Below, piece by piece: positions 1,170 through 40,210 of a stretch of 64,000 nucleotides of DNA (positions are counted from its first letter, which is position 1; every line of letters begins with the position of its first letter). The stretch is from Streptomyces fulvoviolaceus (GTDB taxonomy: Bacteria > Actinomycetota > Actinomycetes > Streptomycetales > Streptomycetaceae). The position numbers and the translations under genes were made by a program. The notes beneath the pieces were generated by a model, which was not told the origin of the DNA, did not search any database, and was given only the letters and a program-made list of their open reading frames with translations. The DNA lies in the NCBI RefSeq assembly GCF_000718165.1, contig NZ_JOEY01000056.1, positions 1 to 64,000 of the forward strand, read 5' to 3'.

Positions 1170-2183
1170 TCAGCCGTGGGTGAGGTCCAGGGCGATGTCC
1201 ACGATCATGTCCTCCTGCCCGCCGACGAGGCCGCGCCTGCCGACCTCCTCCAAGATGGTGCGGGCGTCCAGGCCGTATTGCTCGGCCGCGGCCTCGGCGT
1301 GGCGCAGGAAGCTGGAGTAGGCGCCGGCGTAGCCAAGGGTGAGAGTCTCCCGGTCGACGCGCACCGGTCGGTCCTGGAGGGGACGGACCAGGTCCTCGGC
1401 GGCGTCCTGGAGGGCGAAGAGGTCGCAGTCGTGCTTCCAGCCGTAGAGGTTGGCCACGGCGATGAACGGCTCGATCGGGCAGTTCCCCGCGCCCGCGCCC
1501 TGTCCGGCGAGCGACGCGTCCACCCGGGTCACCCCTTCTTCCACCGCCACCACGGAGTTGGCCACCGAGAGGGAGAGGTTCTCGTGCGCGTGGATGCCGA
1601 TCTGGGTCTCCGGGTCGAGTACGTGCCGGTAGGCGCGGATGCGGTCGCGTACGCCGTCCATGGTGAGCCGGCCGCCGGAATCGGTGACGTACACGCAGTG
1701 TGCCCCGTAGGACTCCATCAGCTTGGCCTGCTGGGCTAGGGCTTCCGGGGGCGCCATGTGGGCCATCATCAGGAATCCCGAGACGTCCATGCCGAGTTCG
1801 CGGGCGGTGGAGATGTGCTGGGCCGCGACGTCCGCCTCGGTGCAGTGGGTGGCGATGCGCACCGAGCGGACCCCGAGGGCGTAGGCCCGCTTGAGTTCGA
1901 CGATGGTGCCGATGCCGGGCAGGAGCAGGGAGGTGAGGACCGCGCGGTCGATGGCGTCCGCGGCCGCCTCGATCCACTCCCAGTCGGTGTTGCTGCCCGG
2001 CCCGTAGTTGAGGCTGCCGCCGGCCAGGCCGTCGCCGTGGGCGACCTCGATCGCGTCCACGCCCGCCTGGTCGAGGGCGGCCGAGATCTTGCCCACGAAC
2101 TCGGGCGTGATCCGGTGCCGTATGGCGTGCATGCCGTCCCGGAGGGTGACGTCCTGCACGTAGAGCCTGCGGGTGGCGGTCAC
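1170..2183 (-). CDS. hsaF: 4-hydroxy-2-oxovalerate/4-hydroxy-2-oxohexanoate aldolase
   Basis: 337-aa class II pyruvate aldolase that splits 4-hydroxy-2-oxoacids into pyruvate and an aldehyde (propanal in the steroid pathway). The N-terminal [11 protein letters not shown] motif carries the metal-binding Asp and catalytic Arg of the DRE-TIM family, and [10 protein letters not shown] supplies the HxH metal ligands. Length is normal. It starts at a GTG overlapping the stop of the dehydrogenase gene (GTGA), which fits the physical channelling complex these two enzymes form. Third gene of the hydratase-dehydrogenase-aldolase operon. The general mhpE/bphI family is indistinguishable by motif; the hsa assignment rests on kstD, hsaC and hsaD neighbours. 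Confidence 0.92.
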
Positions 2184-3142
2184 TTGGTCACCTCGGTGGA
2201 GACTCGCTGGGCGATGCGCTCGGCGACGCGCAGGGCGGCCGAGGTCATGATGTCGAGGTTGCCCGCGTAGGCGGGCAGGTAGTGTGCGGCGCCCTCGACT
2301 TCGAGGAAGACGGAGACCTTGGTGGTCGGCGTCTCGGTCGTGCCTTCGGGCAGCAGCGTGTGGATCGGGTCCCCCGTGGGGACCGGGGTGAACTGGACCT
2401 TCTGCTTGAGCCGGTAGCCGGGCACGTACTCGGCGACCGCGGCCACCATCTCCTCGACGGAGGCCCTGATCGCGTCGTGGTCCGCGTCGCCGATCAGGCA
2501 GTACACCGTGTCCCGCATGATCAGGGGCGGCTCGGCCGGGTTCAGGACGATGATCGCCTTGCCTCGCCGGGCGCCACCCACCCGCTCGATCGCACCGGAG
2601 GTGGTCTCGGTGAACTCGTCGATGTTGGCCCGGGTGCCGGGTCCGGCCGACTTCGAGGAGATCGAGGCGACGATCTCGGCGTAGGGCACGGGGGTGATCC
2701 GGCTGACGGCGTGAACGATCGGGATGGTGGCCTGGCCGCCGCAGGTGACCATGTTGAAGTTGTCGACAGCGTTGTCCGCGCCCTCCAGGTGCTCGTCCAG
2801 GTTCACCGGCGGCACCACGTACGGGCCGAGGGCCGCCGGGGTGAGGTCGACCAGGCGTTTGCCGTACGGGGCGAGCTTCTTGGCGTTCTCGACGTGCGCC
2901 TTCGCCGACGTGGCGTCGAAGACGATGGCGATGTCGTCGAAGCCGTCCATGGCGATCAGGCCGTCCACGCCCTTGTGCGTGGTGGGGATCTTGAGGCGGG
3001 CGGCCCGCGCCAGACCGTCCGAGTCCGGGTCGATGCCGACCATCGCGGCCATCTCCAGGGTGTCGGACAGGCGCAGCACCTTGATCATCAGGTCGGTGCC
3101 GATGTTGCCGGAGCCGATTACGGCCACCTTGGTCTTCGTCAT
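2180..3142 (-). CDS. hsaG: Acetaldehyde/propanal dehydrogenase (CoA-acylating)
   Basis: 320-aa acylating aldehyde dehydrogenase that oxidises the aldehyde released by the aldolase to acyl-CoA using NAD+ and CoA. It has an N-terminal Rossmann motif ([13 protein letters not shown], residues 6-18), the catalytic Cys134 in MVTCGGQA, and the family-typical NPAEPP and MRDT segments. The ATG at 3142 overlaps the stop of the upstream hydratase (ATGA), and its own stop overlaps the aldolase start, so translation is probably coupled. Propionyl-CoA would be the product if the substrate is the steroid ring-A fragment. Confidence 0.92.
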
Positions 3143-3978
3143 CCGTCTTCCTTGAGGTCCTTGGGGGAGAAGGTCGCTGTCACCGAACCCAGGCCCGACA
3201 TCTCGGCCCGTACGGTGGTGCCTGGCGGGGTGGGGACGAGCGGGCCCAGGGCGCCGGAGAGCACGACCTGGCCGGCGCGCAGCGGGTCGCCGAACTCGCG
3301 GGCGGTGCGGGCCAACCACAGCAGCGCGGAGAGGGGGTCGCCCAGACAGGCGGCGCCGCTGCCCTCGGACGCGAGCTCGCCGTCGGCGTACAACCGCATG
3401 GTCACGTCCCGGGGTTCGAACGCGTCGAGCCCGACCGGCTGTTGGCCGAGGACGAACAGGCCGCTGGAGGCGTTGTCGGCGACCGTGTCCGTGATCGCGA
3501 TGTCCCAGTCGGCCACCCGGCTGTCCACGATCTCCAGCGCGGCGACCGCGTGTCCGACGGCCGCCCTGACCCGCTCGACGTCGAGGTCGTCGTGGTCCAG
3601 ATCGGACGCGAGCACGAACGCGATCTCCGCCTCGACCCTGGGTTGCAGCAGCCGGTCGCTCGGGACGGCCGACAGCCCGGTGACGTCCATGTCTTCCAGC
3701 AGGACGCCGAAGTCGGGCCGGTCGACGCCCACTTGGCGCTGCACCGACTCGGACGTGAGCCCGATCTTGCGGCCGACGACGCGCGCTCCGGCAGCGATCC
3801 GGTCACCGATGACGCGCTGCTGGACGGCGTACGCGAGGCTGATGTCGGTCGGGCCGAGCAGGTCCCGCACGGGTGCGCAGGGCTTGTGGTCATGGGCTGC
3901 CCGGGTGAGCCGTGCGGCCGCCTCGGCAACGGCCGTCTCACGGTTCGCGACGGCCGTCGGTTCCCAAACGTCTGTCAT
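3139..3978 (-). CDS. hsaE: 2-keto-4-pentenoate / 2-hydroxyhexa-2,4-dienoate hydratase
   Basis: 279-aa hydratase of the MhpD/fumarylacetoacetate-hydrolase-like fold, adding water to 2-hydroxydienoates to give the 4-hydroxy-2-oxoacid used by the aldolase. Segments typical of the family are KIGLTSE, the PEAEI-like VEAEIAFVL and the IVDSR motif. The ATG at 3978 is preferred because GAGG ends 6 nt upstream; ATG 3984 and TTG 3990 are in frame but worse placed. First gene of the three-gene operon, divergent from the kstD-like gene. Confidence 0.88.
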
Positions 3979-4080
3979 TGCCATCCTCAACTCGTGCCGA
4001 CCTCCAGCGTGAGCTGCGGTGCGCCGCGGCAGCCCGGAGCGTTCCGCTCACCGGGACTCGGGGACCGGGGATCGGGCGGG

Positions 4081-4095
4081 TCTCGCTGAGCGAGA
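4081..4095. promoter_or_regulatory. 15-bp palindrome in the hsaE/kstD divergent promoter region
   Basis: TCTCGCTGAGCGAGA is a perfect palindrome around a central G, in the 257-bp region between the divergent hydratase and kstD-like genes. Position and symmetry fit an operator for a dimeric regulator such as the nearby IclR or TetR protein, but it was not found at the other hsa promoters here. The GTATAC-type box of the central cluster is absent from this promoter region. Confidence 0.35.
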
Positions 4096-4235
4096 TGGCT
4101 CAAGGGCGGGCCCACGCCGCCTCGTTACCTTCGCTGTGGCCGTACGGGGGTGCTCCCTGCCTGTCCTCATGGAACGCGGTCTCCCCTCCACCCCCACACC
4201 CCACCAAGAACGTCAGCACTCATGAGGAGGTTCGG

Positions 4236-5834
4236 ATGAGCATCAACGAGGATGCCTACGACGTGGTGGTCGTAGGGTCTGGCGGAGGTCTGGTCGGGGC
4301 GTACGTGGCGGCGGCGCGCGGTCTGCGCACGCTCGTCATCGAGAAGACCGACCGGGTGGGCGGCACGACCGCCTACTCCGGTGCCGGGCTCTGGTTTCCG
4401 GGCTCCGCACCGCTGCGGCGGGCCGGCGTCGACGGTGTCGGGGACGCCCGGACGTATCTGCGCAGTGTCGTCGACGACAGTTCCCGGGAGCCGCTCCAGG
4501 AGGCCTATCTGCGGGCCGGCGCACAGCTGATCGACGAGCTCGAGCAGAACGAGTGGTTCCAGTCGTTCGTGCACGGCCCCGTGCCGGAGTACTACGCGGA
4601 GGTCCCCGGCTTCTCCCCCGCGGGGCACACCATCTTCCCGCCGCCGGTGACCGTCGCCGAGCTCGGAGAGCAGGCCCGGCTGGTCCGCAACTGCCTCCCC
4701 ACCGAGCGGTGGGGCCACGACGAAGGCCCGGTCCTGAGCGGTGGCCGCGCGTTGATCGGCAGGGCCTTGAAGGCGTTCCTGGAGACCGGTAACGGTTCGC
4801 TCCGCCTCAACACCGCGTTGGAGAGCCTCGTCGTCGAGGACGGCAGGGTCGTCGGTGTGGAGGCGGTGAGTGACGGTGAACGGGTCACGATTCGCGCCCG
4901 GCGCGGCGTCATCCTCGCCGCCGGCGGCTTCGAGCGCAACCACGAACTGCGCGAGAAGTACCAGCCGTTTCCACGCGCCAGTGAGTGGACCCACGGCGCC
5001 CCGGGCAACACGGGCGACGCGCTCCAGGCCGGCATCGCGATCGGTGCCGCCACCGACCTGCTCGACGCGGCCTGGTACACGCCGGGACTCGTGTGGCCGG
5101 ACGGTCTCCCCCTCTTCCACACGGGCACCCGAGGCGGGGTCTGGGTCAACGCCGCGGGCGAACGATTCATCAACGAGACCCGTCCCTACGACCAGGCCGG
5201 GAGCGAGATAGTCCGCCTGCACACGACCTCGGGCGTCTCGCACATCCCCGCCCACTGGGTGTTCGACCAGCGGCAGCTCGACCGGGACAGCTTCGGCGGC
5301 CCGGCCGAGCAGCCCGTCCGCCCCGAGTGGTTCGAATCGGGCGCGCTGAAGAAGGCGGACACCCTCGAGGAACTGGCGGAGCTGATCGACGTACCGCTCG
5401 AAGCGCTGCGCAAGACCATCGAGGAGTTCAACGGCTACGCGAAGACCGGGGTCGACGAGAAGTTCCATCGTGGCGAGACACCCTGGGACCAGATCGCCCA
5501 CCATGTGCTGGGCTACCCCGGCCTGCCCGAGCTGAACTACGCGGCACCGCCCACGCCCGACTGGCCGAACCCGCTGCTGCTTCCGATCGACACCCCGCCG
5601 TACTACGTCGCAACCATCCTCCCGGCCGACATCGGCACCAAGGGTGGCCTGAAGACCGACGAACACGCGCGGGTGCTGCGGCCGGACGGCAGCCCGATCG
5701 GCGGGCTCTACGCGAGCGGGAACACCATGGCCGCGATGTCCGGACGCGTGTACCCGGGCGCGGGGACGCCGATCGGTTCGAGTACGGCCTTCTCGTACCT
5801 GGCGGTGCTGGACATCGCCGGCGCGACGGACTGA
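4236..5834 (+). CDS. kstD: 3-ketosteroid-delta1-dehydrogenase-like flavoprotein
   Basis: 532-aa FAD enzyme of the KstD/fumarate-reductase superfamily, which introduces the delta-1 double bond into ring A of 3-ketosteroids. An N-terminal dinucleotide-binding motif (VVGSGGGLVG, from residue 12) is followed by VIEKTDRVGGTTAYSG. Tyr119/Tyr120 lie where KstD has an active-site Tyr, and the C-terminal YPGAGTPIGSS places Tyr506 and Gly510 with the 4-residue spacing of the KstD catalytic pair. Length matches KstDs (about 510-560 aa). The start is fixed by GAGGAGG just upstream. Delta-4-5-alpha or other ketosteroid dehydrogenases of the same fold cannot be excluded. Confidence 0.82.
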   Translation: MSINEDAYDVVVVGSGGGLVGAYVAAARGLRTLVIEKTDRVGGTTAYSGAGLWFPGSAPLRRAGVDGVGDARTYLRSVVDDSSREPLQEAYLRAGAQLIDELEQNEWFQSFVHGPVPEYYAEVPGFSPAGHTIFPPPVTVAELGEQARLVRNCLPTERWGHDEGPVLSGGRALIGRALKAFLETGNGSLRLNTALESLVVEDGRVVGVEAVSDGERVTIRARRGVILAAGGFERNHELREKYQPFPRASEWTHGAPGNTGDALQAGIAIGAATDLLDAAWYTPGLVWPDGLPLFHTGTRGGVWVNAAGERFINETRPYDQAGSEIVRLHTTSGVSHIPAHWVFDQRQLDRDSFGGPAEQPVRPEWFESGALKKADTLEELAELIDVPLEALRKTIEEFNGYAKTGVDEKFHRGETPWDQIAHHVLGYPGLPELNYAAPPTPDWPNPLLLPIDTPPYYVATILPADIGTKGGLKTDEHARVLRPDGSPIGGLYASGNTMAAMSGRVYPGAGTPIGSSTAFSYLAVLDIAGATD

Positions 5835-5841
5835 CCGCACG

Positions 5842-5876
5842 ACTGTGCCCGGGACACCAGGTGTCCCGGGCACAGT
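5842..5876. terminator. Bidirectional terminator between kstD-like and TetR genes
   Basis: Two perfectly complementary 17-nt arms flank a single central base, starting 7 nt after the kstD-like stop and ending 9 nt before the TetR stop on the other strand. Perfect symmetry lets it work for both convergent units. Confidence 0.85.
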
Positions 5877-5885
5877 GCTGCGCGT

Positions 5886-6530
5886 TCAGGGTGCGGCGAT
5901 CAGCCGCACGGCAAGGCGCAGGTCCGCCTCCGCCTGCTCGGTGGTGATCTCCTCGGTCAGCATGGCCACGAACAGACCCCACCAGCTGTAGACGAGCAGC
6001 CGCACCCTGCTGCGCTCGGTCTCCGCGTCCCCGCGGCCTCTGAGCAGGTGCAGGAGCCGCTGTCCCAAGGCCCTCTCGACGATGTCGAACCGGGTCGGGA
6101 CGACGCTCGCGTACTCCGCGAACGACGACAGCGCCACCGCCGAGGCCAGCAGAGGGCTGGCCAGCAACTTCTCGCTCAGCGCGATGAGCGTCTGAGCCAC
6201 CTCCGTCGCGGGGTCGTACTCCTCGTCGACGGGGGAACCACCGTTCCGGCCCCCGATGAACTGCTCGATGTGCCATTCGAGGACGGCGAGGAACAGATAG
6301 GGCTTGGACGGGAAGTAGCGGTACAGCGTGCCGATCGCGACGCCGGCCTCCTTGGCCACGTCGTGCATCTGCACGCCGGCGAGCCCCTCGCGCGCACCGA
6401 GTTCGGAGGCGGCGCTCAGGATGCGGACCCGGCGAGCGGCCTGGCGGCTCGACATCGGAGCGGCGGGTCGCCGTATCTCTGCCACTCTCGCCACGCCGCC
6501 GTCCCCCGTGTCGTCGGGTGCTCCCGCCAT
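5886..6530 (-). CDS. TetR-family transcriptional regulator
   Basis: About 214 aa, with an N-terminal TetR helix-turn-helix: VAKEAGVAIGTLYRYFPSKPYL is split across the HTH and is very similar to steroid-regulon repressors of the KstR type. The C-terminal ligand domain is less conserved and contains WWGLF. The GTG at 6536 immediately follows the hydrolase stop; the ATG at 6530 is two codons later, and either could be used. It is co-transcribed with the hsaD-like hydrolase, so it probably senses a steroid or ring-cleavage metabolite. Identity with KstR or KstR2 cannot be claimed from the sequence alone. Confidence 0.85.
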   Translation of the reverse strand: MAGAPDDTGDGGVARVAEIRRPAAPMSSRQAARRVRILSAASELGAREGLAGVQMHDVAKEAGVAIGTLYRYFPSKPYLFLAVLEWHIEQFIGGRNGGSPVDEEYDPATEVAQTLIALSEKLLASPLLASAVALSSFAEYASVVPTRFDIVERALGQRLLHLLRGRGDAETERSRVRLLVYSWWGLFVAMLTEEITTEQAEADLRLAVRLIAAP

Positions 6531-6536
6531 CGCCAC

Positions 6537-7397
6537 TCAGGAAGTCTCCGGGCGGGTCAGGAAGGCCAACACCGCGCTCTCCCAGGCTTCCTTCTGCTCG
6601 ATCATCGCCCAGTGCCCGCAGTCCGGCAGGACGTGCAGTTCGGCCTTGGGGATCGTCCGCATGGGCAGCAGCGCGCTCTCCAGGGGCGTGACCCTGTCGT
6701 CCCGGCCCCAGGTCAGCAGCGTGGGCGCGGTGACCTTGTGGAGTGCGGCCCAGATGGGCTGGTCGGACTGGGACTGGGCGGCCTGGATCGCGGCCATCGC
6801 CTGCCGGCCGTAGATCCGGCGGGACGCCTCCAGCGTCGCCGGCTCGGTGGCGCTCGCCCAGCGCTCCTCGATCAGCTCCTCCGTGAGCAGGGCCGGGTCG
6901 TGGACCATCGCGCGCAGCCACTGGACGAGGTTGTCGCGGGTGGGGTTCTCGGCGAACTCCACCAGCAGGTTGAGCCCTTCGCTGGGCCCCGGGGACAGGA
7001 TGTTGCGGCCCACGCCGCCGATGGTCACGATCCGGCGGAACAGGTCCTTGTGGGCGACCGCGAGTCCCACGGCCACGAAACCGCCCATGGAGTTGCCGAT
7101 GACGTCGACGCGGTCCAGGCCGAGGCCGTCGAGGAAGCGCAGGACGGCCTTGGGGCCCGCCACCATCGGGTTCTCGGCGGTCGGGTCGCTCACTCCGAAG
7201 CCGGGGAACTCCAGGGCAAGGCAGCGGAAGTGCTTGGCGAGCACGGGGAGGTTGCCCCGGAAGTTGCGCCAGCCGGTCACGCCCGGTCCCGACCCGTGCA
7301 GCAGGAGCAGAGGCGGTCCGTCGCCCGCCTCGTGGTAACGCAACGTGCCCTCGTCGGTGGGAAGTTCGCGCAGGGTGTCCTCGTAGCTGAGTGTCAT
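6537..7397 (-). CDS. hsaD: HsaD-like meta-cleavage product hydrolase (alpha/beta hydrolase)
   Basis: 286-aa alpha/beta hydrolase of the C-C bond (MCP) hydrolase family. The oxyanion region HGSGPGVTGWRNF is diagnostic of MCP hydrolases. The nucleophile elbow GNSMGG places Ser103, and Asp234 and His262 complete the triad. It is expected to cleave the product of the extradiol dioxygenase encoded divergently next door, giving a 2-hydroxydienoate plus the remaining ring fragment. The ATG at 7397 is chosen by homology of the N-terminus; upstream in-frame codons give a longer but non-conserved start. BphD-type substrates are possible, but context favours HsaD. Confidence 0.88.
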   Translation of the reverse strand: MTLSYEDTLRELPTDEGTLRYHEAGDGPPLLLLHGSGPGVTGWRNFRGNLPVLAKHFRCLALEFPGFGVSDPTAENPMVAGPKAVLRFLDGLGLDRVDVIGNSMGGFVAVGLAVAHKDLFRRIVTIGGVGRNILSPGPSEGLNLLVEFAENPTRDNLVQWLRAMVHDPALLTEELIEERWASATEPATLEASRRIYGRQAMAAIQAAQSQSDQPIWAALHKVTAPTLLTWGRDDRVTPLESALLPMRTIPKAELHVLPDCGHWAMIEQKEAWESAVLAFLTRPETS

Positions 7398-7559
7398 GAC
7401 GGTCACCGTCCCACCCGGAGGATGCCTGTCGTCCCGCATCTCCCGATCAGTGGGACGGTTCCGGCGGCAGGCGTGCCGGGCTGTCTACGGTCGCGGAAGT
7501 AGCGATACCGGGGACCCTCGGGCCGCCCGGACCTGACCAAATTGCGAGGGGAGGACCTG

Positions 7560-8432
7560 ATGGGTGTTCGCTCACTCGGGTACCTGCGTCTTGAATCCAA
7601 CGACATCGACAAGTGGAAGGCCTTCGGGGGCGACTTCCTCGGTCTGATGCCCGTCGAGGGCGGTGATCCCGAGTCGCTCCACTTCAGGATGGACGACTAT
7701 CCGGCCCGTATCGTGGTCTCCCCGGGGGCACAGCCCGGGATGACGGCGCTGGGCTTCGAGGTCCTCGACGAGCGGGAGCTGGCGGGGCTGGTCGCGGACG
7801 TCGAGAAGGCCGGGATCAAGGTGACCGTCGGCACCGAGGCGGAGGCCGCGGCGCGGAAGGTCACGGGCTTCGTCAAGTTCAACGACCCGGGTGGGAACCC
7901 GGTCGAGCTGTTCTACGGCACGACCCTGGACCATGTGCCGGTGCAGACCCCGCTGGTGTCGAAGTTCGTCACCGGTGACATGGGCTTCGGACACGCCATC
8001 ATCTCCGCCGAGGACGCGCGGACCACCTTCGAGTTCTACGTCAACGTCCTGGGCTTCATCGAGCGGAACACGATGCGCTCACCGGGCGGCACGACCTGGT
8101 TCATGGGGTGCAACCCCCGGCACCACACCCTCGGGGTGACGCCGATGCCGGGTCCGGGGCGCCTGCTGCACTTCATGGTGGAGGGGGCGACGCTGGACGA
8201 CGTGGGGCGCGCTCTCGACCGGGCCGCCAAGTACGAGGTGCCGATGATGCACTCGCTCGGCAAGCACACGAACGACCACATGGTGTCGTTCTACGTCTGG
8301 TCGCCGGAGAACTACGCCGTCGAGTTCGGCTGGAACGGCCTGAAGGTGCCGGAGCCCGTCCCGGTCTACGAGATCACGGACGGCGCGTTCTGGGGCCACC
8401 GCTTCACACCGCCGCCGCAGCCGGCCGGCTGA
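7560..8432 (+). CDS. hsaC: HsaC-like extradiol ring-cleavage dioxygenase
   Basis: 290-aa type I extradiol dioxygenase of two tandem vicinal-oxygen-chelate modules. The C-terminal module carries the Fe(II) ligands His145, His204 and Glu255, with the acid/base His240 and Tyr246 where BphC-type enzymes have them. It opens catecholic ring A meta to the hydroxyls (3,4-DHSA in the steroid pathway). Start ATG 7560 is supported by GGGGAGG 6 nt upstream. Divergent from the hydrolase gene across about 160 bp, in which no GTATAC-type operator was found. Slightly shorter than typical HsaC (about 300 aa). Confidence 0.87.
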   Translation: MGVRSLGYLRLESNDIDKWKAFGGDFLGLMPVEGGDPESLHFRMDDYPARIVVSPGAQPGMTALGFEVLDERELAGLVADVEKAGIKVTVGTEAEAAARKVTGFVKFNDPGGNPVELFYGTTLDHVPVQTPLVSKFVTGDMGFGHAIISAEDARTTFEFYVNVLGFIERNTMRSPGGTTWFMGCNPRHHTLGVTPMPGPGRLLHFMVEGATLDDVGRALDRAAKYEVPMMHSLGKHTNDHMVSFYVWSPENYAVEFGWNGLKVPEPVPVYEITDGAFWGHRFTPPPQPAG

Positions 8433-16269: not shown

Positions 16270-17742
16270 TCAGTGCCACCAGGGGATCAGGGCATCCAGG
16301 TGGCGCCGCATCCGGTGCCGGGCCACCCCGGCGTCGCCCTGCACGATCGCGTCGAGGATGCGCTGGTGGACGTGCTGGACCTCGTCGGCCGCCGTGTCAC
16401 CCGGCAACGGCCGGTCGTGGCCGGACGCGTGCCGACGGAACAACTCGGTGATGATGGCGAGGAAGAGCGACAGCACCGGGTTGTCGGACAGGGCCGCCAG
16501 CTCGGAGTGGAACAGGTCGGCCTTGCGGGCGTCGTCGGCCGGACCCTCCGTGGCCCACCGGACGGCCTTCGTCAGGCGCTCGGCGACCAGCGCATCGCCC
16601 TCGGCGTGGCGGGCGGTGACCCTGGCGACGATGCCGAGTTCGATGGCGTTGCGGACGATCCGCAGGTCGTCGGCCGTGACGCCCTGGTACTCGAGGAAGA
16701 GCGCCATGGTGTCGATGCTGGCCTGCGGCTCGGGCTCGGTGACGATCAGGCCGCCGCCGGGGCCGCGGCGCATCCGGGCGACGGCGTGGTACTCGAGGAG
16801 CCGCACGGCCTCCCGCAGGACGGCCCTGCTGACTCCGTAGCGGGCGAGGAGGTCGGTCTCCGAACCGAGCACCATGCCGATCTGCCAGCCCCGCGCGGCG
16901 ATGTCGTCGTGGATCCGGGCGGCCAGCACCTCGGCGAGCTTGGCCCTCGGCCCCTCGGCCAGTTCGGGCTCGATCACGTTCCCCGCGATCCGCTGCCCGC
17001 GGCGCACCCGGTGCTTCTCGATCCAGGCGGCCACCGACTCCAGGTGTGCGGTCAGCTCCGTCTGCGCGCGTGCGCCGTTGTCGGAGACCACGGCGTCGAC
17101 GACGGCTTTGTGCGCCTGGTGCGAGGTCTCCTTCGCCGCGTGCATCTCCGCCTTGGAGATACGGCGGGAGGTGTGCGCGTACCGGGCGGTGAGGCGCGTG
17201 AGGACGTCGATGAACAGGTGCAGCACGGGGTTGCCCGACAGCTTGCCGAGCACCGGGTGCAGTGGGTCCTGCGAGTGGACCGACGGGTCGTCCCAGTGGG
17301 CGAGTTCGCCTTCGAGAGTGGCGCGGAGGGTGGTGATCCCCTCCTCCGTGATGCGGTCGGCGGCGAGTCCCGCGGCGATCGGTTCGAGGAGCTGGCGGGC
17401 CTGGAGCAGGTCCGTGACGCTGGTGCCGACGAACTCGAGGTAGATCACCATGGCCCGGGTCGCCGGTCCGGCGTCGGGGGCGCAGACGATCAAGCCGCCG
17501 TTCGGGCCACGCCGCATCCTGGCGACCTGGTGGTGCTCGACCAGCCGCACGGCCTCGCGCAGCACCGCGCGGCTCACGCCCAGGCGCTCCCGCAGGTCCA
17601 CTTCGGAGCCCAGCGACTCCCCGACGGGCCAGCCCTGGCGGATCACGGTGGCCTCGATGCGCTGCGCGGTCTGCGCGGCCAGTTTGCCGACCGGGGTGCC
17701 GGTCTCGCCGTCGGCGGGCTCGTGGTCGACGGCAGTCGCCAT
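16270..17742 (-). CDS. Tandem-duplicated GntR/FadR-family regulator
   Basis: 490 aa made of two complete FadR-type halves in one chain. Half 1 has a winged helix at about 20-86 and an FCD effector domain at about 95-240; half 2 has a winged helix at about 268-334 and an FCD domain at about 345-480. The recognition segment GVSRAVLREAVRL is identical at 55-67 and 303-315, and the wing VARMRRGPnGGLIV repeats at 73-86 and 321-334. One polypeptide could therefore bind a full palindrome as a pseudodimer. FadR-type proteins prefer GTM-N(0-1)-KAC sites, which fits the GTATAC boxes found across this locus. Ligand probably an acyl-CoA or steroid acid (inference). Confidence 0.9.
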   Translation of the reverse strand: MATAVDHEPADGETGTPVGKLAAQTAQRIEATVIRQGWPVGESLGSEVDLRERLGVSRAVLREAVRLVEHHQVARMRRGPNGGLIVCAPDAGPATRAMVIYLEFVGTSVTDLLQARQLLEPIAAGLAADRITEEGITTLRATLEGELAHWDDPSVHSQDPLHPVLGKLSGNPVLHLFIDVLTRLTARYAHTSRRISKAEMHAAKETSHQAHKAVVDAVVSDNGARAQTELTAHLESVAAWIEKHRVRRGQRIAGNVIEPELAEGPRAKLAEVLAARIHDDIAARGWQIGMVLGSETDLLARYGVSRAVLREAVRLLEYHAVARMRRGPGGGLIVTEPEPQASIDTMALFLEYQGVTADDLRIVRNAIELGIVARVTARHAEGDALVAERLTKAVRWATEGPADDARKADLFHSELAALSDNPVLSLFLAIITELFRRHASGHDRPLPGDTAADEVQHVHQRILDAIVQGDAGVARHRMRRHLDALIPWWH

Positions 17743-33237: not shown

Positions 33238-33253
33238 AAAAAGTATACTGTTT
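33238..33253 (+). promoter_or_regulatory. GTATAC-family box (site 3), probable leaderless promoter
   Basis: AAAAAGTATACTGTTT. TATACT at 33244-33249 is a near-consensus -10 hexamer and the ATG of the ACAD11-like gene starts 9 nt after it, leaving no room for a ribosome site. The first 12 bases are identical to site 5. Confidence 0.65.
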
Positions 33254-33258
33254 TCGTC

Positions 33259-34578
33259 ATGCTGGATTTCTCGATCGACCCCGATTTCCAGGCCAAGCTC
33301 GACTGGGCGGCGGCCTTCGTACGCGAGGAGGTCGAGCCTCTCGACCTCCTGTTCCCGCACGGCGGTGACCCGTACGACACCCGCAACGAGAAGGCCCGCG
33401 CGATTCTGCGGCCTCTCCAGGACCAGGTCCGGGAACAGGGTCTGTGGGCCTGCCATCTCGGCCCCGACCTGGACGGACCGGGCTACGGCCAGGTGAAGCT
33501 CGCCCTCCTCAACGAGATCCTCGGCCGCTCCTACTGGGCCCCGACGGTGTTCGGCACCGCGGCCCCGGACACCGGCAACGCCGAGATCCTCGCCATGTTC
33601 GGCACCGAGGAGCAGAAGGACCGCTATCTGCGGCCCCTGCTCGACGGCGAGATCGTCTCCACGTTCTCGATGACCGAGCCGCAGGCGGGCGCCGATCCCA
33701 AGGAGTTCGTGTGCCGCGCCTGGCGCGACGGGGACGAGTGGGTGATCGACGGGGAGAAGTGGTTCTCCTCCAACGCCCGGTACGCGGCCTTCCTCATCGT
33801 CATGGCCGTCACCGATCAGGAGGCGCCGCCGCATCAGCGGATGTCGATGTTCATCGTCCCGGCCGAGACGCCCGGTATCGAGATCAAGCGCAACGTCGGT
33901 GCGATGGACGAGCGGGAGTCCCTCGAGGAGGGCATCCACGCCTATATCCGCTACCACCAGGTCCGGGTGCCGCTCGACGCCATGCTCGGCGGCCCGGGCG
34001 AGGGCTTCAAGGTCGCCCAGGCCCGCCTCGGCGGCGGCCGTGTGCACCACGCCATGCGCACGGTGGGCAAGTGCACCCGTGCCTTCGACATGATGTGCGA
34101 GCGCGCGCTGTCCCGCCGTACGCAGGGCACCCTGCTCGCCGAGAAGCAGGCGGCGCAGCAGTTCATCGCGGACTCCTGGGTGGAGTTGCAGCAGTTCCGG
34201 CTGCTCGTCCTGCACACGGCCTGGATCATCGACACCCAGCCGCACGGCGCCGCGCGCACCCAGATCGCGATGTGCAAGGTCCAGACGGCCAAGGTGCTGC
34301 ACGACATCATCCAGCGGGCGGTGCACCTGCACGGCTCGCTCGGCACGACGGGCGAACTCCCGCTCGCCAAGTGGTGGATGGCCGCGCCCAACCTCGCCCT
34401 GGCCGACGGTCCGACCGAGGTGCACCGCACCACGATCGCCAAGCAGCTGCTGAAGAAGTACCAGCCGGCCGAGGGGCTGTTCCCGAGCGAGCACATCCCG
34501 CCGAAGCTGGACGCCGCCCGCAAGCGGTACGCGCACATCATCGAGGACGACGGGCTCGCCGGACGGGTGGACGGATGA
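33259..34578 (+). CDS. ACAD10/11-like acyl-CoA dehydrogenase (LvaC-like)
   Basis: 439-aa dehydrogenase, longer than the other ACADs here. FSMTEPQAGADPKEF and VIDGEKWFSSNARYA are the flavin loops; the C-terminus LADGPTEVHRTTIAKQLL is of the ACAD11 type. In ACAD10/11 and in LvaC this dehydrogenase acts with an APH-type kinase that phosphorylates a 4-hydroxyacyl-CoA, after which phosphate is lost. Such a kinase gene converges on this unit at 35306-36433. The start 9 nt after a -10-like TATACT suggests a leaderless mRNA. Confidence 0.85.
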   Translation: MLDFSIDPDFQAKLDWAAAFVREEVEPLDLLFPHGGDPYDTRNEKARAILRPLQDQVREQGLWACHLGPDLDGPGYGQVKLALLNEILGRSYWAPTVFGTAAPDTGNAEILAMFGTEEQKDRYLRPLLDGEIVSTFSMTEPQAGADPKEFVCRAWRDGDEWVIDGEKWFSSNARYAAFLIVMAVTDQEAPPHQRMSMFIVPAETPGIEIKRNVGAMDERESLEEGIHAYIRYHQVRVPLDAMLGGPGEGFKVAQARLGGGRVHHAMRTVGKCTRAFDMMCERALSRRTQGTLLAEKQAAQQFIADSWVELQQFRLLVLHTAWIIDTQPHGAARTQIAMCKVQTAKVLHDIIQRAVHLHGSLGTTGELPLAKWWMAAPNLALADGPTEVHRTTIAKQLLKKYQPAEGLFPSEHIPPKLDAARKRYAHIIEDDGLAGRVDG

Positions 34579-35351
34579 CCGACGGTCGCAACGCCAAGTC
34601 CATCGCCCCGGCCGACCTGTTCGACCTGTCCGGCAAGGTCGCGCTCGTCACCGGTGGCAGCCGGGGCCTGGGCCTGGAGATGGTGCGCGCCTTCGCCACC
34701 GCGGGCGCCGACGTGGTGATCGCCAGCCGCAAGCTCGACGCGTGCGAAACAGTCGCCGCCGAGGTCCGCGACCTGGGCCGGCGCGCCCTGCCTGTCGCTG
34801 CGCACGTGGGCCGCTGGGACGACCTCGGCCGGCTGGTCGACACGGCGTACGAGGAGTTCGGGAAGATCGACGTCCTCGTCAACAACGCCGGCATGTCACC
34901 GGTGGCGCCCTCGTCGGCAGAGACCAGCGAGGAACTGTTCGACAAGGTGATCGGGGTCAACTTCAAGGGCCCGTTCCGGCTCGCCTCGCTGATCGGGCAG
35001 CGGATGGCGGACGGGGACGGCGGCTCCATCATCAACGTCTCCTCCTCGGGAGCGCTGATGCCGCAGCCACGGTTCGGGCCCTACGCCGGTGCGAAGGCCG
35101 CGCTCAACGCGCTGACCACCGTCTTCGCCCTGGAGTACGGCCCGAAGGTGCGGGTCAACACCCTCTCGGCGGGTCCCTTTCTCACCGACATCTCCAAGGC
35201 CTGGTCGGAGGAGAAACGGCAGACCACGCGCAGCGCGCTCGGCCGGCCCGGGCGGCCGGAGGAGGTCATCAGCACGGCGCTGTACTTGGCGAGCGACGCG
35301 TCCAGTTATACGACGGGGGCGCTGATCCGGGTGGATGGCGGCCTGTACTGA
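34575..35351 (+). CDS. SDR-family oxidoreductase (LvaD-like position)
   Basis: 258-aa classical SDR: TGGSRGLGLEM cofactor motif, NNAGMS, catalytic Ser in SSSGALM and Tyr/Lys in FGPYAGAKAAL. ATG overlaps the ACAD stop (ATGA), so the pair is coupled. By analogy with the levulinate pathway it could interconvert a 4-oxo and 4-hydroxyacyl-CoA, but ordinary 3-hydroxyacyl oxidation is equally compatible. Its 3' end overlaps the end of the convergent kinase gene by 46 bases. Confidence 0.85.
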   Translation: MTDGRNAKSIAPADLFDLSGKVALVTGGSRGLGLEMVRAFATAGADVVIASRKLDACETVAAEVRDLGRRALPVAAHVGRWDDLGRLVDTAYEEFGKIDVLVNNAGMSPVAPSSAETSEELFDKVIGVNFKGPFRLASLIGQRMADGDGGSIINVSSSGALMPQPRFGPYAGAKAALNALTTVFALEYGPKVRVNTLSAGPFLTDISKAWSEEKRQTTRSALGRPGRPEEVISTALYLASDASSYTTGALIRVDGGLY

Positions 35352-36433
35352 GCGCTCCGCTGGTTATGCGGTTCGTTTGCCGCGGGCCGGTGGGGGCTGG
35401 TCGCGCCCACGCGGCGGAGCCGCATATCGATACAGCCCCGCGCCCCCAGTGCGGGCAGCATGCGCCGGTGCATGTCGGTCAGTTCCCCCGCCTTCCGTCC
35501 GCGTTTGATGAGCAGCGCGGTCGCCGCGGACTCCTTGTACTTGGTGAGCGCCTCGAACCAGGCCAGGTCGTGCAGCGGCTCGCCCCGGACCTCCTGGTAG
35601 GTGTCGAGCAGTTCGGCCTTGCCGGGCATCCCGGTCGGCTCGTCCGACAGGGATGCCGGGTGGCGGGCCTCGTCGGTGAAGAAGGTCAGCCAGGTCAGGT
35701 CGACCCGGGGGTCGCCGAGCGACCAGATCTCCCAGTCGATGACCGCGTTGACCGAGTCCGCGTCGCACAGCGTGTTGCCGAGCCGGTAGTCGCCGTGGGT
35801 GAACACCGGCATCATCGCCGCGGGCACGGTGGCGTGCAGGCGCTCCGCGACCGCCTCGTGGCCGGTGCGCAGGTCCTCCGGGACGGTCGTGAACGCCCGG
35901 GTCCAGCGGTCGATCTCGGCGCGGAGCGTGACAACAGGCTCCATCGCCAGGGGAGTTCGCTTGGGATCCACCCGGTGCAGCTGCGCGAGCATCCGCGCCG
36001 CGTCGAGGGCACGGGACCTGACCTGTCCGGCGGGAAGCGTTCCGCGTGGTACCAGCACCGGCTCCACGCACTCCCCGGGCACCAGCTCCATGGCCACGAA
36101 CGGCTGGACTGCCGGTGGTGCGCCCTTGTCGCTGAACAGCACTTTCGGCACCCGGACCCCGTGCACTCCGGACAGCACCTGCATGAGCCGCGCCTGCCGC
36201 AGCACGTCCCGGTTGCGGACGGGTTCCAGGCCGGGCGGGGCCACCTTGAGGACGATGCGCTCGTACTCGGCCGGGACACCCGACAGGACGGCCACGTAGG
36301 TCAGGCTGGACGTGCCGCCGGCGAGCGGCTCGACCGCGTCCACCGTGGCCCCGGGAGCCCAGCCGCGGAGCACCGCGGCCGTACGCTCCGTCAGCTCCGG
36401 GAGCAGACTCGTACTGTTCACGACGGTGCTCAT
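35306..36433 (-). CDS. APH-type kinase (LvaA / ACAD10-kinase-like) with repeat-derived tail
   Basis: 375-aa aminoglycoside-phosphotransferase-fold kinase. ATP-binding Lys63 (VLKVAPP), catalytic loop HGDYRLGN (Asp215, Asn220) and the metal Asp233 in IDWE. This subfamily includes LvaA and the kinase half of ACAD10/11, which phosphorylate 4-hydroxyacyl-CoA rather than drugs. The fold appears to end near residue 329; residues 330-375 are read from intergenic repeat copy B and the antisense end of the SDR gene. ATG 36433 overlaps the ligase stop (ATGA). Antibiotic resistance is unlikely given the neighbours. Confidence 0.85.
   Translation of the reverse strand: MSTVVNSTSLLPELTERTAAVLRGWAPGATVDAVEPLAGGTSSLTYVAVLSGVPAEYERIVLKVAPPGLEPVRNRDVLRQARLMQVLSGVHGVRVPKVLFSDKGAPPAVQPFVAMELVPGECVEPVLVPRGTLPAGQVRSRALDAARMLAQLHRVDPKRTPLAMEPVVTLRAEIDRWTRAFTTVPEDLRTGHEAVAERLHATVPAAMMPVFTHGDYRLGNTLCDADSVNAVIDWEIWSLGDPRVDLTWLTFFTDEARHPASLSDEPTGMPGKAELLDTYQEVRGEPLHDLAWFEALTKYKESAATALLIKRGRKAGELTDMHRRMLPALGARGCIDMRLRRVGATSPHRPAANEPHNQRSAQYRPPSTRISAPVV
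35352..35450. repeat. Streptomyces-type intergenic repeat, copy B
   Basis: Starts at the base after the SDR stop with GCGCTCCGCTG; bases 35395-35446 are identical to copy A. A GGGGCTG/CAGCCCC outer stem encloses a GCGGC/GCCGC stem, so it may terminate the SDR transcript. On the other strand it is read through as the C-terminal tail of the kinase. Confidence 0.75.
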
Positions 36434-37935
36434 GGCTTCGTCCGTTCCGAGGTCAGGGCCGCGACGATGTCACGGCGTACGAGCTTGCCCGTCGCGGTGC
36501 GGGGCAGTTCGGGCCAGGAGGTGATGTGGTCCGGGGTCTTCGAGCCGCGCAGGGTGTCGCGGACCGCGGCGCGCAGGGCCGTGCCGTCGACCTCCGCGCC
36601 GTCCCGGGTCACGACCACGGCCTCGATCCGCTGGCCCCATTCCTCGTCGGGAACCCCGACGACGACCGCGTCGAGCACGTCCGGGTGCCGCAGCAGGACG
36701 TCCTCGATCTCGGCGGGCGCGATGTTCTCGGCACCGCGGATGATCGTGTCGTCGACCCTGCCCTCGATGTGGAGGTAGCCGTCGGCGTCGACGCGGCCCC
36801 GGTCGCGGGTGTGGAAGAAGCCCCGCTCGTCGACCGCGGAGCCCTGGCCGGCGTACTCGCCCGAGACCTGTTCGCCGCGCACCCAGATCTGCCCGGTCTC
36901 CCCCGGGGCGACGGCCTCGCCGGTCACGTCGCGGACCTCCAGTTCGATGCCCGGCACCGGCAGGCCCGCCGAGCCGAGCCGGGCCCGCACCGCGGGATCG
37001 TCGCTCGCGACGGCCGTCCGGTGTTCCTGCGGGCCCAGGACGGTGATGGTGGACGAGGTCTCGGTGAGCCCGTAGGCGTTCACGAAGTCCACGTGCGGCC
37101 ACGCGCGCAGGGCGGCCTCGATCACCCGCACCGGCATCCGGGCCCCGCCGTAGGCGAGTGCGCGCAGCGAGGGCACCGACCGGTCGACTGCGTCCGTGTC
37201 CATGACGCGGGCGAGCATCGTCGGCACCACCATCGCGTTGGTGATCCGCTGCTCCCGTACGAGGCCGAGCCAGCCCTCCGGCGTGAACTGGTCGAGGGTC
37301 AGCGCGCGGCGGCCCGCGTACAGGTTCGTCAGCACGTTCGACACGGCGGCGATGTGGTACGGCGGGACGCTCACCAGGGCCGCCTCGTCGGGGTCGGCTG
37401 CGGCGAACTCCACCGTGCCGAGGACGTACGACACCAGGTTGTGGTGGCGCAGGACGACGCCCTTCGGCGTGGAGGTCGTCCCACTCGTGTAGATGAGGAC
37501 GGCCGGGGAGTCGGGCTGCGCCGGAACGTCGTCGGCGGGAAGGCCGGTGTGGTCCGCGGCCTCGGCGAGCCACTCGGCCGGGCTCAGCACCGGGAGCCCG
37601 GCGCGGCGCAGTGCCTCGCCGTGTTCCGGGTCGGCGATACCCAGTGCGCGGGGGTGGTTGGCGAGCAGGACGTCGAGTTGTTCGTCGCCCAGCCGGTAAT
37701 TGACCGGAACCAGGGGGACTCCGGCGCGGGCCGCGGCGAACAGCGCGACGGGGAGGGCCGGGCCGTTCACCGCCAGGTACACGATCGCGTCGGCGCCCCT
37801 CCCGTGGACGACGCGCGCCCCGCCGTCGGACAGCTCGCTCAACCGCCGCGCGCTCAGCCCACCGTCCGTGCGCCCGATCACGACCCGGTCGCCGAAGCCC
37901 TCGGCGGCCATGTCCAGAAGCATCGATATGTTCAT
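36430..37935 (-). CDS. AMP-forming acyl-CoA synthetase (LvaE-like position)
   Basis: 501-aa ANL ligase: IYTSGTTSTPKGV P-loop, YGLTETSST core motif, HTRDRGRVDADGYLHIEGR hinge and catalytic Lys in RTATGKLVRRD. It activates a carboxylic acid for the kinase/dehydrogenase module. It sits between the 103-aa protein gene (17 bp upstream) and the kinase (4-bp overlap), the same set of partners as LvaE with LvaA and LvaB. The ligase at 27502-28998 is a distinct paralogue. Confidence 0.9.
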   Translation of the reverse strand: MNISMLLDMAAEGFGDRVVIGRTDGGLSARRLSELSDGGARVVHGRGADAIVYLAVNGPALPVALFAAARAGVPLVPVNYRLGDEQLDVLLANHPRALGIADPEHGEALRRAGLPVLSPAEWLAEAADHTGLPADDVPAQPDSPAVLIYTSGTTSTPKGVVLRHHNLVSYVLGTVEFAAADPDEAALVSVPPYHIAAVSNVLTNLYAGRRALTLDQFTPEGWLGLVREQRITNAMVVPTMLARVMDTDAVDRSVPSLRALAYGGARMPVRVIEAALRAWPHVDFVNAYGLTETSSTITVLGPQEHRTAVASDDPAVRARLGSAGLPVPGIELEVRDVTGEAVAPGETGQIWVRGEQVSGEYAGQGSAVDERGFFHTRDRGRVDADGYLHIEGRVDDTIIRGAENIAPAEIEDVLLRHPDVLDAVVVGVPDEEWGQRIEAVVVTRDGAEVDGTALRAAVRDTLRGSKTPDHITSWPELPRTATGKLVRRDIVAALTSERTKP

Positions 37936-37952
37936 GTGCCCGCCCCGTCCCC

Positions 37953-38264
37953 TCAGTCCGAGGCCGGCAGCGGCTTGGCGCTCTTCACGGGCAGCGGCAC
38001 GCCGTTCACGGCGATCGTGCCCGGCCCGGGCTTGGTGCAGAGCAGTTCCACGCCCAGGTCCTCGTCGGCGTACCGCTTGCCGAGCAGCGAACCGCCCATC
38101 AGGTCGGGGTGGGGGGCGCCGGTGGTGGCGGACCCGGGCCCGTTCCCCTCGGTCATGGCCGCCCCACCGCAGGTGATCTCCAACTCGCCGTCGGGGCACC
38201 GGACGACGATCACCGCCGTCGTATCGACCGTACTGGCGAGCATCTGCCCCACGCGTGGCCTCAT
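37953..38264 (-). CDS. Small conserved-type protein (LvaB-like position), unknown fold
   Basis: 103 aa from ATG 38264, with GGAGG 8 nt upstream; the frame is open further upstream without a better start. Contains VIVVRCPDGELEITCGGAAM (20 residues, around 17-36) with two Cys, then a Gly-rich linker and GKRYADEDLGVELLCTKPG. No signal peptide or membrane segment. LvaB is a protein of about 12 kDa of unknown fold needed for LvaA kinase activity and found beside lvaA (known); size and neighbourhood match, direct homology is not proven here. Confidence 0.72.
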   Translation of the reverse strand: MRPRVGQMLASTVDTTAVIVVRCPDGELEITCGGAAMTEGNGPGSATTGAPHPDLMGGSLLGKRYADEDLGVELLCTKPGPGTIAVNGVPLPVKSAKPLPASD

Positions 38265-38318: not shown

Positions 38319-38334
38319 AAAAAGTATACTACTT
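38319..38334 (+). promoter_or_regulatory. GTATAC-family box (site 5)
   Basis: AAAAAGTATACTACTT; the first 12 bases equal site 3. TATACT at 38325-38330 is placed as a -10 for the crotonase at 38366 and lies 55 nt upstream of the divergent small-protein/ligase/kinase operon. Confidence 0.65.
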
Positions 38335-38365: not shown

Positions 38366-39139
38366 ATGGATCTCGAGACCGTCCTGTTCGAGGTGACCGA
38401 CCACGTCGCCACGATCACACTGAACCGGCCCCAGGCCATGAACGGCTTCAACCAGCGGATGCTGGAGGAGTTCTCCGACATCTGGCAGACCGTCAAGACC
38501 GACGACGACGTGCATGTCGTCGTGCTGCGCGGCGCCGGTGAGAAGGCGTTCTGTACGGGCATGGACGTGAAGGAGGGGATCGACCGCCACCCCAACGTCT
38601 GGTCGCAGACCGACCCCGGCGAGTACCTCTCGCCGAAGCTCAACCAGGTGTGGAAACCCGTGGTGTGCGCGGTGCACGGCATGGCCGCCGGCGGCGCCTT
38701 CTACTGGCTCAACGAGGCCGACATCCTCATCTGCTCCGAGGAAGCCACGTTCTTCGACCCGCACGTCAGCTACGGGCTCACCGCGGCCCTGGAGCCGATC
38801 GGACTCGCCCGTCGCATCCCGCTCGGCGAGGCGCTGCGCATCGCGCTGCTCGGCCTGGACGAGCGCGTGTCGGCGGCGCGCGCCCTGCAGATCGGCCTGG
38901 TCAGCGAGGTGCTCCCGCGCAATCAACTGTGGGACCGGGCCGACGAGATCGCCCGGATCATCGCCGCCAAACCCCCGGCCGCGATCCAGGGAACCGTCCG
39001 GGCGATCTGGGAGTCGCTCGACGCCACGCGCACCCAGGCACTGCGCACCGGACTGTCGTACACACAGATCGGCAACCCGATCGGGAAGGCGGAGATCGAC
39101 CGCTCCGCGGTGCCTCGGGGGCGGTGGACACTGCGCTGA
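38366..39139 (+). CDS. Enoyl-CoA hydratase/isomerase (crotonase)
   Basis: 257-aa crotonase with oxyanion segments FCTGMDVKEGI and AVHGMAAGGAFYWLNEADI. The usual AGGGxE glutamate position is replaced by AGGAFYW, so it may be an isomerase or unusual hydratase rather than a standard hydratase. Start supported by GGAG 8 nt upstream. Followed by an LLM gene with its own box-type promoter. Confidence 0.87.
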   Translation: MDLETVLFEVTDHVATITLNRPQAMNGFNQRMLEEFSDIWQTVKTDDDVHVVVLRGAGEKAFCTGMDVKEGIDRHPNVWSQTDPGEYLSPKLNQVWKPVVCAVHGMAAGGAFYWLNEADILICSEEATFFDPHVSYGLTAALEPIGLARRIPLGEALRIALLGLDERVSAARALQIGLVSEVLPRNQLWDRADEIARIIAAKPPAAIQGTVRAIWESLDATRTQALRTGLSYTQIGNPIGKAEIDRSAVPRGRWTLR

Positions 39140-39159: not shown

Positions 39160-39175
39160 ATTAAGTGTACTTTTT
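39160..39175 (+). promoter_or_regulatory. GTATAC-family box (site 6)
   Basis: ATTAAGTGTACTTTTT, with a GTGTAC core, 37 nt upstream of the LLM gene ATG. TGTACT can serve as the -10. It lies in the 72-bp gap after the crotonase gene, showing that this gap is a promoter rather than a terminator. Confidence 0.55.
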
Positions 39176-39211: not shown

Positions 39212-40210
39212 ATGCGGTTCGGCATGCCCTGGCCCGGCCGGGACGTCGCACGTGAGGCCGAACAGGCCGGCGTCGGCGCCTTCTGCGCCGGGGAGTTCGT
39301 CGACCACGACGCCTATCTCACCGTGGCCGACATCGTGGCGAACACCGAGCACGCCTTGGCGGGCCCCGCCATCGCCTACGCGTTCGCCCGCACCCCGTAC
39401 GCGCACGCCACCGCCCTGCGCCAGTTGCACGCCCAGGCGCCGGGCCGGCTGTTCCTCGGCCTGGGCAGCGCCGCGTTCCGGATCAACCGCGACTGGCTGG
39501 GCGTGCCCGCCGACCGTCCCGTGGACCGGATCGCCGAGACCGTCGGTGCCGTGCGGGCCTGGCTGCACGCGGAGAACGGCGAACAGGTCCGCTACTCGGG
39601 CGAGTTCTACTCGCTCGACGCCGACGTCCGCGCCCCGGTGCTCGGCCGGCTGGACATCCCTGTCCTGCTCGCCGCGTTCAACACCCGCATGGCCGCCACC
39701 GCGGGCCGGGTCGCCGACGGGGTCATCGGGCACGGCCTGTTCACCGCCCCCTGGTGGAACGACGTCGTACGGCCGTCCGTCGAGCGCGGCCGCGAAGGAG
39801 CCGCGCGTCCGCTCGAACACGGCTGGATCATCACAGCGGTCGACGACGCCGCACCCGAGCGCGCCATCGCCGACGCCCGGCGGATGATCGCCTTCTACCT
39901 CACGGTGAAGACGTACGACCCTTATGTCGCCCGCCACGGCTGGGAGGAGCCGATCGCACGGCTCCGGGCCGCGTTCAGAGCCGGTGACACGGATGAGATG
40001 GCGAAGGCGGTGACCGACGAGATGGTCACCGCGATCGCCGTGTGCGGGACGACCGCCGACGCCAAGGACGCCCTCGCTCGCCGCGCCGGCTCGCTCCCCC
40101 GCGACGTCGGCTACTTCGCGCCTCCGAGCTTCATGGTGAGCCGCAGGCGCAGGGCCGCCTACGCCCAGGCATCCCTCGCGCTCATCGGTGCCGTACCGGA
40201 TCCGGTCTGA
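39212..40210 (+). CDS. LLM-class (F420-type) flavin-dependent oxidoreductase
   Basis: 332-aa luciferase-like monooxygenase fold: GxFCAGEFVDHDAY near the N-terminus, GRLFLGLGSA and a central region with PVLLAAFNTRM are typical of actinobacterial F420-dependent enzymes. It probably reduces or oxidises a ketone or enoyl group using F420 (family-level inference). GGGAGG precedes the ATG. Transcribed from its own box-bearing promoter and ended by a shared hairpin. Confidence 0.85.
   Translation: MRFGMPWPGRDVAREAEQAGVGAFCAGEFVDHDAYLTVADIVANTEHALAGPAIAYAFARTPYAHATALRQLHAQAPGRLFLGLGSAAFRINRDWLGVPADRPVDRIAETVGAVRAWLHAENGEQVRYSGEFYSLDADVRAPVLGRLDIPVLLAAFNTRMAATAGRVADGVIGHGLFTAPWWNDVVRPSVERGREGAARPLEHGWIITAVDDAAPERAIADARRMIAFYLTVKTYDPYVARHGWEEPIARLRAAFRAGDTDEMAKAVTDEMVTAIAVCGTTADAKDALARRAGSLPRDVGYFAPPSFMVSRRRRAAYAQASLALIGAVPDPV

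Follow-up and report, generated by a model that had tools for sequence, protein, structure and literature searches.

The segment at 33259..38264 of a 64,000-nt stretch of a Streptomyces fulvoviolaceus contig (host genome size 11.58 Mb), hereafter the window, carries five genes in two convergent units. With somewhat better than even confidence, it is read here as one regulon made of two functional pairs: an acyl-CoA ligase with a 103-aa small protein as its partner, and a kinase with an ACAD11-type acyl-CoA dehydrogenase (ACAD) route that includes a short-chain dehydrogenase/reductase (SDR). The segment is likely, judging by what the genes encode, an ACAD10/11-type phosphorylation-elimination module for 4-hydroxyacyl-CoA. 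This frame had been proposed in a sequence-only reading of the same DNA, and it is now carried by the ACAD residues, the kinase, a promoter box and conservation of the genes. The central claim of that reading, that the 103-aa protein is the counterpart of LvaB, is rejected; the small protein goes with the ligase.

Five-gene segment

All five open reading frames (ORFs) were confirmed at their coordinates, in the two converging units described earlier. The ACAD-SDR unit consists of an ACAD10/11- (LvaC-) type ACAD (439 aa, 33259..34578, + strand) and an SDR oxidoreductase (258 aa, 34575..35351, +; PF13561/PF00106), the start of which overlaps the ACAD stop. The opposing unit encodes the 103-aa protein (37953..38264, −), annotated from its gene neighborhoods and a structural model as a ligase partner with a probable tandem desulforedoxin-like fold, an AMP-binding acyl-CoA ligase (501 aa, 36430..37935, −; PF00501 and PF13193) that belongs to a distinct subfamily and a kinase of the aminoglycoside phosphotransferase (APH) fold (375 aa, 35306..36433, −). 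The start of the 103-aa ORF is consistent with its homologs. Of the earlier proposal that all five genes match the lva set, the ACAD11-like dehydrogenase and its companion APH kinase stood; the 103-aa protein was unmatched, and the SDR and ligase were generic by family models.

Dehydrogenase, kinase and SDR

The best PDB relatives of the ACAD were 4hr3 (270 bits) and three entries of ACAD11 (255, 253 and 246 bits), with the next entry, 4u83, far lower at 149 bits. In PMC12440821, R626, H634 and R637 are described as absent from conventional ACADs and, with the catalytic D753, as common to ACAD10/11 and LvaC; these residues are tied there to 4-phosphoacyl-CoA handling. Equivalents of all four are present in the window ACAD, and each of five conventional window ACADs that were compared lacks the complete set. 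The enzyme is predicted from these residues to eliminate phosphate from 4-phosphoacyl-CoA. Five ACADs of the host genome, the window's included, match it at E ≤ 1e-40, each with an APH kinase nearby; ACAD and kinase are direct neighbors in four of the five pairs, and in the window pair the SDR lies in between. In one of these ACADs, on contig C52, Tyr stands in place of H634.

The kinase, which had been recognized as an APH-type companion of the ACAD, was matched by PF01636 (E 3.2e-32), and its motifs HGDYRLGN and DWE are intact. The canonical alpha-C Glu, beside R86, is replaced by Gln in all 12 window-type kinases aligned, the window's included. Similarity to the solved ACAD11 was weak (E 2.2e-8), the best PDB match being 3dxp (E 2.8e-11). 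By its motifs and context, the protein is a predicted 4-hydroxyacyl-CoA kinase.

At 375 aa, the window kinase exceeds five close relatives (340–343 aa) by about 34 residues, the region concerned being 35306–35410. The surplus probably lies at the C-terminus and would account for the 46-nt overlap between the kinase and SDR genes; the original stop was perhaps lost, giving the longer protein.

Of the best 25 NCBIfam matches of the SDR, one clears its subfamily cut-off (NF005559); the protein is otherwise generic. The same ACAD-SDR pair is present in relatives, and by context the SDR would occupy the position of LvaD. The ligase passes no NCBIfam subfamily cut-off among its best 25 matches, which are generic AMP-ligase models. 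Its subfamily has three copies in the host genome (1093, 619 and 574 bits), followed by a match of 219 bits.

Regulatory box

The sequence-only reading had placed an identical box at both outer promoters, and a scan of the window bore this out, with AAAAAGTATACT found exactly at 33238–33249 and 38319–38330. Each copy belongs to a palindromic box composed of AAAAAGTATACT and a near-perfect mirror, one (33238..33253) upstream of the ACAD-SDR unit and the other (38319..38334) between the genes for the small protein (−) and a crotonase (+). A third copy with one mismatch (39164..39175, −) is upstream of the luciferase-like monooxygenase gene (39212..40210, +). When up to two mismatches were allowed, seven matches were found at five places in the window versus 0.03 expected from shuffles. 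Genome-wide, up to one mismatch gave four matches at three distinct places (33238/33242, 38319 and 39164), all in the cluster; the reversed-pattern control gave one match in the same scan. The core of the box, AGTATACT, is a perfect palindrome that contains TATACT and might thus serve as operator, as −10 element or as both. The eight closest loci examined (L064–L069, L076 and, from a Streptomyces plasmid, L009) all carry it both at the promoter of the ACAD gene and in the gap between the crotonase and small-protein genes; the exact core was not found anywhere in the stretches of two Nocardia loci examined (L072 and L080). Because the box stands at both promoters and is conserved in relatives, the five genes very probably form one co-regulated set, and the AAAAAGTATACT box would define the regulon of the module.

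Association of the 103-aa protein with the ligase

Homologs of the small protein numbered 2,794 (120 listed), and the best 80 of at least 561 confirmed loci were surveyed. In 63 of the 80 loci a ligase gene and the small-protein gene share a strand and are no more than 100 bp apart (ligase downstream in 61, upstream in 2), and ligase fragments also adjoin the small-protein gene in L078 and L143 at a looser threshold. In this survey, on which the frequency of the kinase is based, a strong kinase match (>300 bits) was found within 2.6 kb of the small-protein gene in 10 loci. Conservation of the five genes, a check that the earlier reading had named, was seen in relatives: the convergent arrangement is kept in 9 of the 80 loci (by record name, Streptomyces six, "Actinobacteria bacterium" one, Nocardia two), with extra genes in between in L072, L065 and L069, and the crotonase keeps its place in all of them but L080 (8 of 9). 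In 5 of the 17 loci lacking an adjacent ligase (L095, L099, L100, L122 and L142), the small-protein gene directly follows one that looks, by eye, like an aldehyde dehydrogenase gene.

Whole genomes gave the same association. Among 296 Actinomycetota genomes, the 12 with the small protein (E ≤ 1e-3) are also the 12 with the ligase subfamily (E ≤ 1e-100); they come from seven genera, and up to 16 (small protein) and 5 (ligase) first-look candidates were scored per genome. The two genes are not always adjacent: they are about 24 kb apart in G023 and about 11 kb apart in the second pair of G050, and in G091 two small proteins are found with a single ligase. The host genome has three of each, two pairs being adjacent and the members of the third separated by about 16.5 kb of one contig. 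On plasmids, the ligase gene adjoins the small-protein gene in all seven loci opened, of 18 records, and the kinase follows the ligase in one of the seven. Seven long open frames were inspected for a further domain joined to the small protein, and none was convincing. Judged by this distribution, the small protein is apparently an obligate partner of the ligase subfamily, and we infer that the two proteins are in physical contact.

Predicted fold and metal sites of the 103-aa protein

The model of the small protein is confidently all-beta (pLDDT 90.5). A fold search with the whole chain gave no match at E ≤ 0.001, its top ranks being pyruvate kinases with E above 1, and a profile search of solved structures gave nothing at E ≤ 1. 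The halves gave more. The N-terminal half superposes on 1dxg over 36 residues with a root-mean-square deviation (rmsd) of 1.1 Å, with weak scores; the C-terminal half, folded alone, had 1dxg as its top match (Foldseek probability 0.91, TMt 0.83, rmsd 1.5 Å), and five of its seven other matches were desulfoferrodoxins/superoxide reductases. Sequence evidence for an internal repeat was suggestive only. Columns 11, 14, 32 and 33 of an 87-row alignment were taken, from the Cys ligand positions of desulforedoxin, as the first-half equivalents of the ligands; one Cys was found there in 51 rows, two in 34, three in 2 and four in none. In its second half, the window protein has Cys at none of the four ligand positions. 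A Pfam scan of the 87 members gave scattered weak matches, including one to PF23548 (E 0.00073), which is a zinc-ribbon family, and four weak ones to Desulfoferrod_N. According to the models, the protein is likely two fused desulforedoxin-like domains that lack most of the metal-binding residues. Since most of the ligands are lost, it most likely acts by binding and not by redox chemistry.

Relation to LvaB

No Pfam match at E ≤ 1 and no NCBIfam match at E ≤ 0.1 was found for the 103-aa protein. The family of LvaB is taken here to be DUF6285 (PF19802). On this assumption the comparison of hidden Markov models that had been suggested was run against DUF6285, and the two families appeared unrelated (profile probability 0.1%). 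Proteins of DUF6285 encoded beside APH kinases look helical by eye, as opposed to the all-beta model of the small protein; a PDB profile search with DUF6285 gave nothing convincing (four matches, best E 0.32). A search of the host genome found no DUF6285 match, and the same genome carries four further kinase/ACAD11-type pairs (contigs C6, C28, C52 and C54; L153–L156).

DUF6285 was found in 25 of the 296 Actinomycetota genomes, and a kinase-like ORF lies within the same ~3-kb locus in 26 of 29 DUF6285 loci, two pairs of which are pieces of one gene each; of the loci lacking a kinase, two are short (1.7–1.8 kb) and the third is a match under the family cut-off. This linkage supports, short of confirming it, the assumption that DUF6285 is the family of LvaB. 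On plasmids the order is kinase-DUF6285-ACAD in Variovorax and ACAD-kinase-DUF6285 in Thermus, and the LvaC-type residues are present in the Thermus ACAD and absent from the Variovorax ACAD. The latter (L062, 6294–7433) stands immediately behind the DUF6285 gene and is a conventional, Glu-type ACAD, so what comes after a kinase-DUF6285 pair need not be LvaC-type. Of 172 plasmid records with a relative of the ACAD10/11-type gene, three were opened (Cupriavidus, Comamonas and Variovorax), and in these no annotated kinase or DUF6285 gene adjoins the ACAD.

A tree of 36 APH proteins was built from 14 of the 26 kinase-linked DUF6285 loci, two plasmid loci, window-type kinases and an outside set of four APH proteins of the host genome, one of them with a very long branch; it was rooted at the midpoint, and LvaA of Pseudomonas putida was not among its members. 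The 16 DUF6285-adjacent kinases form one group (support 99/96) and the 12 window-type kinases a separate one (support 99/94), with the other ACAD11-linked kinases of the host genome on the window side. Because the window kinase falls outside the DUF6285-linked group, a small subunit need not be expected for it. PMC11342911 gives the ACAD10/11 kinase domains as 29% identical to LvaA, with other bacterial kinases closer, and reports that bacterial orthologs could replace domains of ACAD10, the kinase domain included. Since an ACAD10-like bacterial kinase served in that exchange, a kinase that works apart from an LvaB subunit is precedented.

Proposed pathway and alternatives

From these genes we infer the substrate, all of the reactions and the regulator. 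The ligase would convert a carboxylic acid to its CoA thioester, with the 103-aa partner bound to it for assembly, stability or activation, probably in a non-redox role. The SDR would interconvert 4-oxo and 4-hydroxy states, the kinase would phosphorylate the 4-hydroxyacyl-CoA, and the ACAD11-type flavoenzyme would eliminate the phosphate to give a 2-enoyl-CoA, which the neighboring crotonase could hydrate, leading into beta-oxidation. Should the ligase depend on the small protein for its activity, such ligases would have to be co-expressed with it in heterologous hosts. The chemistry might also act on another hydroxyacyl-CoA, or on a bulky ring-derived acid from the steroid-like cluster, and not on simple 4-hydroxy acids. 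The kinase subfamily differs from the DUF6285-linked kinases, and from ACAD11's at alpha-C, and the cluster carries ring-cleavage genes related to HsaC–HsaG; the ACAD, however, retains every residue tied to binding of the 4-phospho group, and we hold this substrate range to be the less probable one, at about one chance in four.

For the small protein, an even chance is given to a specific role: an unnamed family of 2,794 members with a tandem desulforedoxin-like fold and lost metal sites, which would be required, in Actinomycetota and sphingomonads, to activate or chaperone a single subfamily of acyl-CoA ligases, MbtH-like, on a repurposed electron-transfer fold. It might alternatively be a subunit required by the kinase, as LvaB is: PMC6692424 describes P. 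putida LvaB as an LvaA-binding protein of 12 kDa, LvaA and LvaB being needed together, and the two small proteins are of similar size. In the nine five-gene loci the small-protein gene also runs with those of the ligase and kinase in one direction and order; against this, the ligase adjoins the small protein far more often across the survey than a strong kinase match does, the predicted fold is all-beta, DUF6285 shows no profile relation to it and is unmatched in the host genome, and the window kinase lies outside the DUF6285-linked group. We regard a kinase subunit as very improbable. A metal or redox carrier, in desulforedoxin-like electron transfer or thiol sensing for acid/aldehyde metabolism, with the ligase linkage secondary, would account for the modeled fold, the two or three Cys kept in 36 of the 87 rows, the PF23548 and Desulfoferrod_N matches and the five loci with an upstream aldehyde dehydrogenase (by eye) and no adjacent ligase. 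It fits poorly with the second half of the window protein, with the single first-half Cys in the majority of rows and with co-occurrence with one ligase subfamily, and is considered unlikely, if less so than the kinase subunit.

In the open-licence literature, no paper was found on desulforedoxin or desulforedoxin-like proteins with acyl-CoA synthetase or acyl-CoA, on desulforedoxin in actinobacteria, or on 4-hydroxy acids with ACAD11 in Actinobacteria; titles and the opening lines of abstracts held nothing on point for a small protein with a ligase or MbtH.

Surrounding genes

The crotonase gene (enoyl-CoA hydratase/isomerase, 38366..39139, +; PF00378) diverges from the small-protein gene. 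Positions 1170–8432 of the window encode a FAD_binding_2 flavoprotein, a 4-hydroxy-2-oxovalerate aldolase, an acetaldehyde dehydrogenase, a hydratase, an HsaD-like hydrolase and an HsaC/BphC-like extradiol dioxygenase, an aromatic-ring-cleavage set related to steroid degradation. FAD_binding_2 is the Pfam domain carried by KstD. With this domain and HsaC-, HsaD-, HsaE-, HsaF- and HsaG-like enzymes, the first three under NCBIfam equivalog cut-offs, "steroid-like" is a fair but unproven description of the cluster. A 490-aa regulator (16270–17742, −) has FCD matches in two stretches with a GntR match between them and is apparently a tandem GntR-FCD fusion.

Comparison with known systems

As in lvaABCDE of P. 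putida, a ligase, an SDR, an APH kinase and an LvaC-type ACAD occur together, with the same predicted chemistry. Unlike lvaABCDE, the window has no LvaB-like (DUF6285) protein, its genes form two convergent units under one box, its small protein is tied to the ligase and its kinase lies outside the DUF6285-linked group. The tempting assignment as LvaB thus gives way to a conserved small protein whose occurrence follows that of one CoA ligase subfamily. With mammalian ACAD10 and ACAD11 the module shares the equivalents of R626, H634, R637 and D753 and a kinase partner without LvaB; in contrast to the mammalian single chain, the kinase and the ACAD are encoded separately, on opposite strands, and the window kinase is only weakly similar to that of ACAD11, with Gln for the alpha-C Glu. 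The ACAD10/11-type route for 4-hydroxyacyl-CoA would thereby extend to a breakdown cluster of Actinomycetota, without the LvaB subunit.

Each half of the small protein resembles desulforedoxin, or the N-terminal domain of desulfoferrodoxin, in its predicted fold over all 36 residues of 1dxg, with weak scores; it differs in having two halves in one chain, in the loss of most metal-binding Cys and in its link to an acyl-CoA ligase. MbtH-like proteins are small, encoded beside the adenylation domains of nonribosomal peptide synthetases, and co-occur with them. The 103-aa protein is comparable by analogy of role only, as a small protein beside one class of adenylate-forming enzyme; its partner, unlike theirs, is a stand-alone CoA ligase, and homology to MbtH is not claimed.

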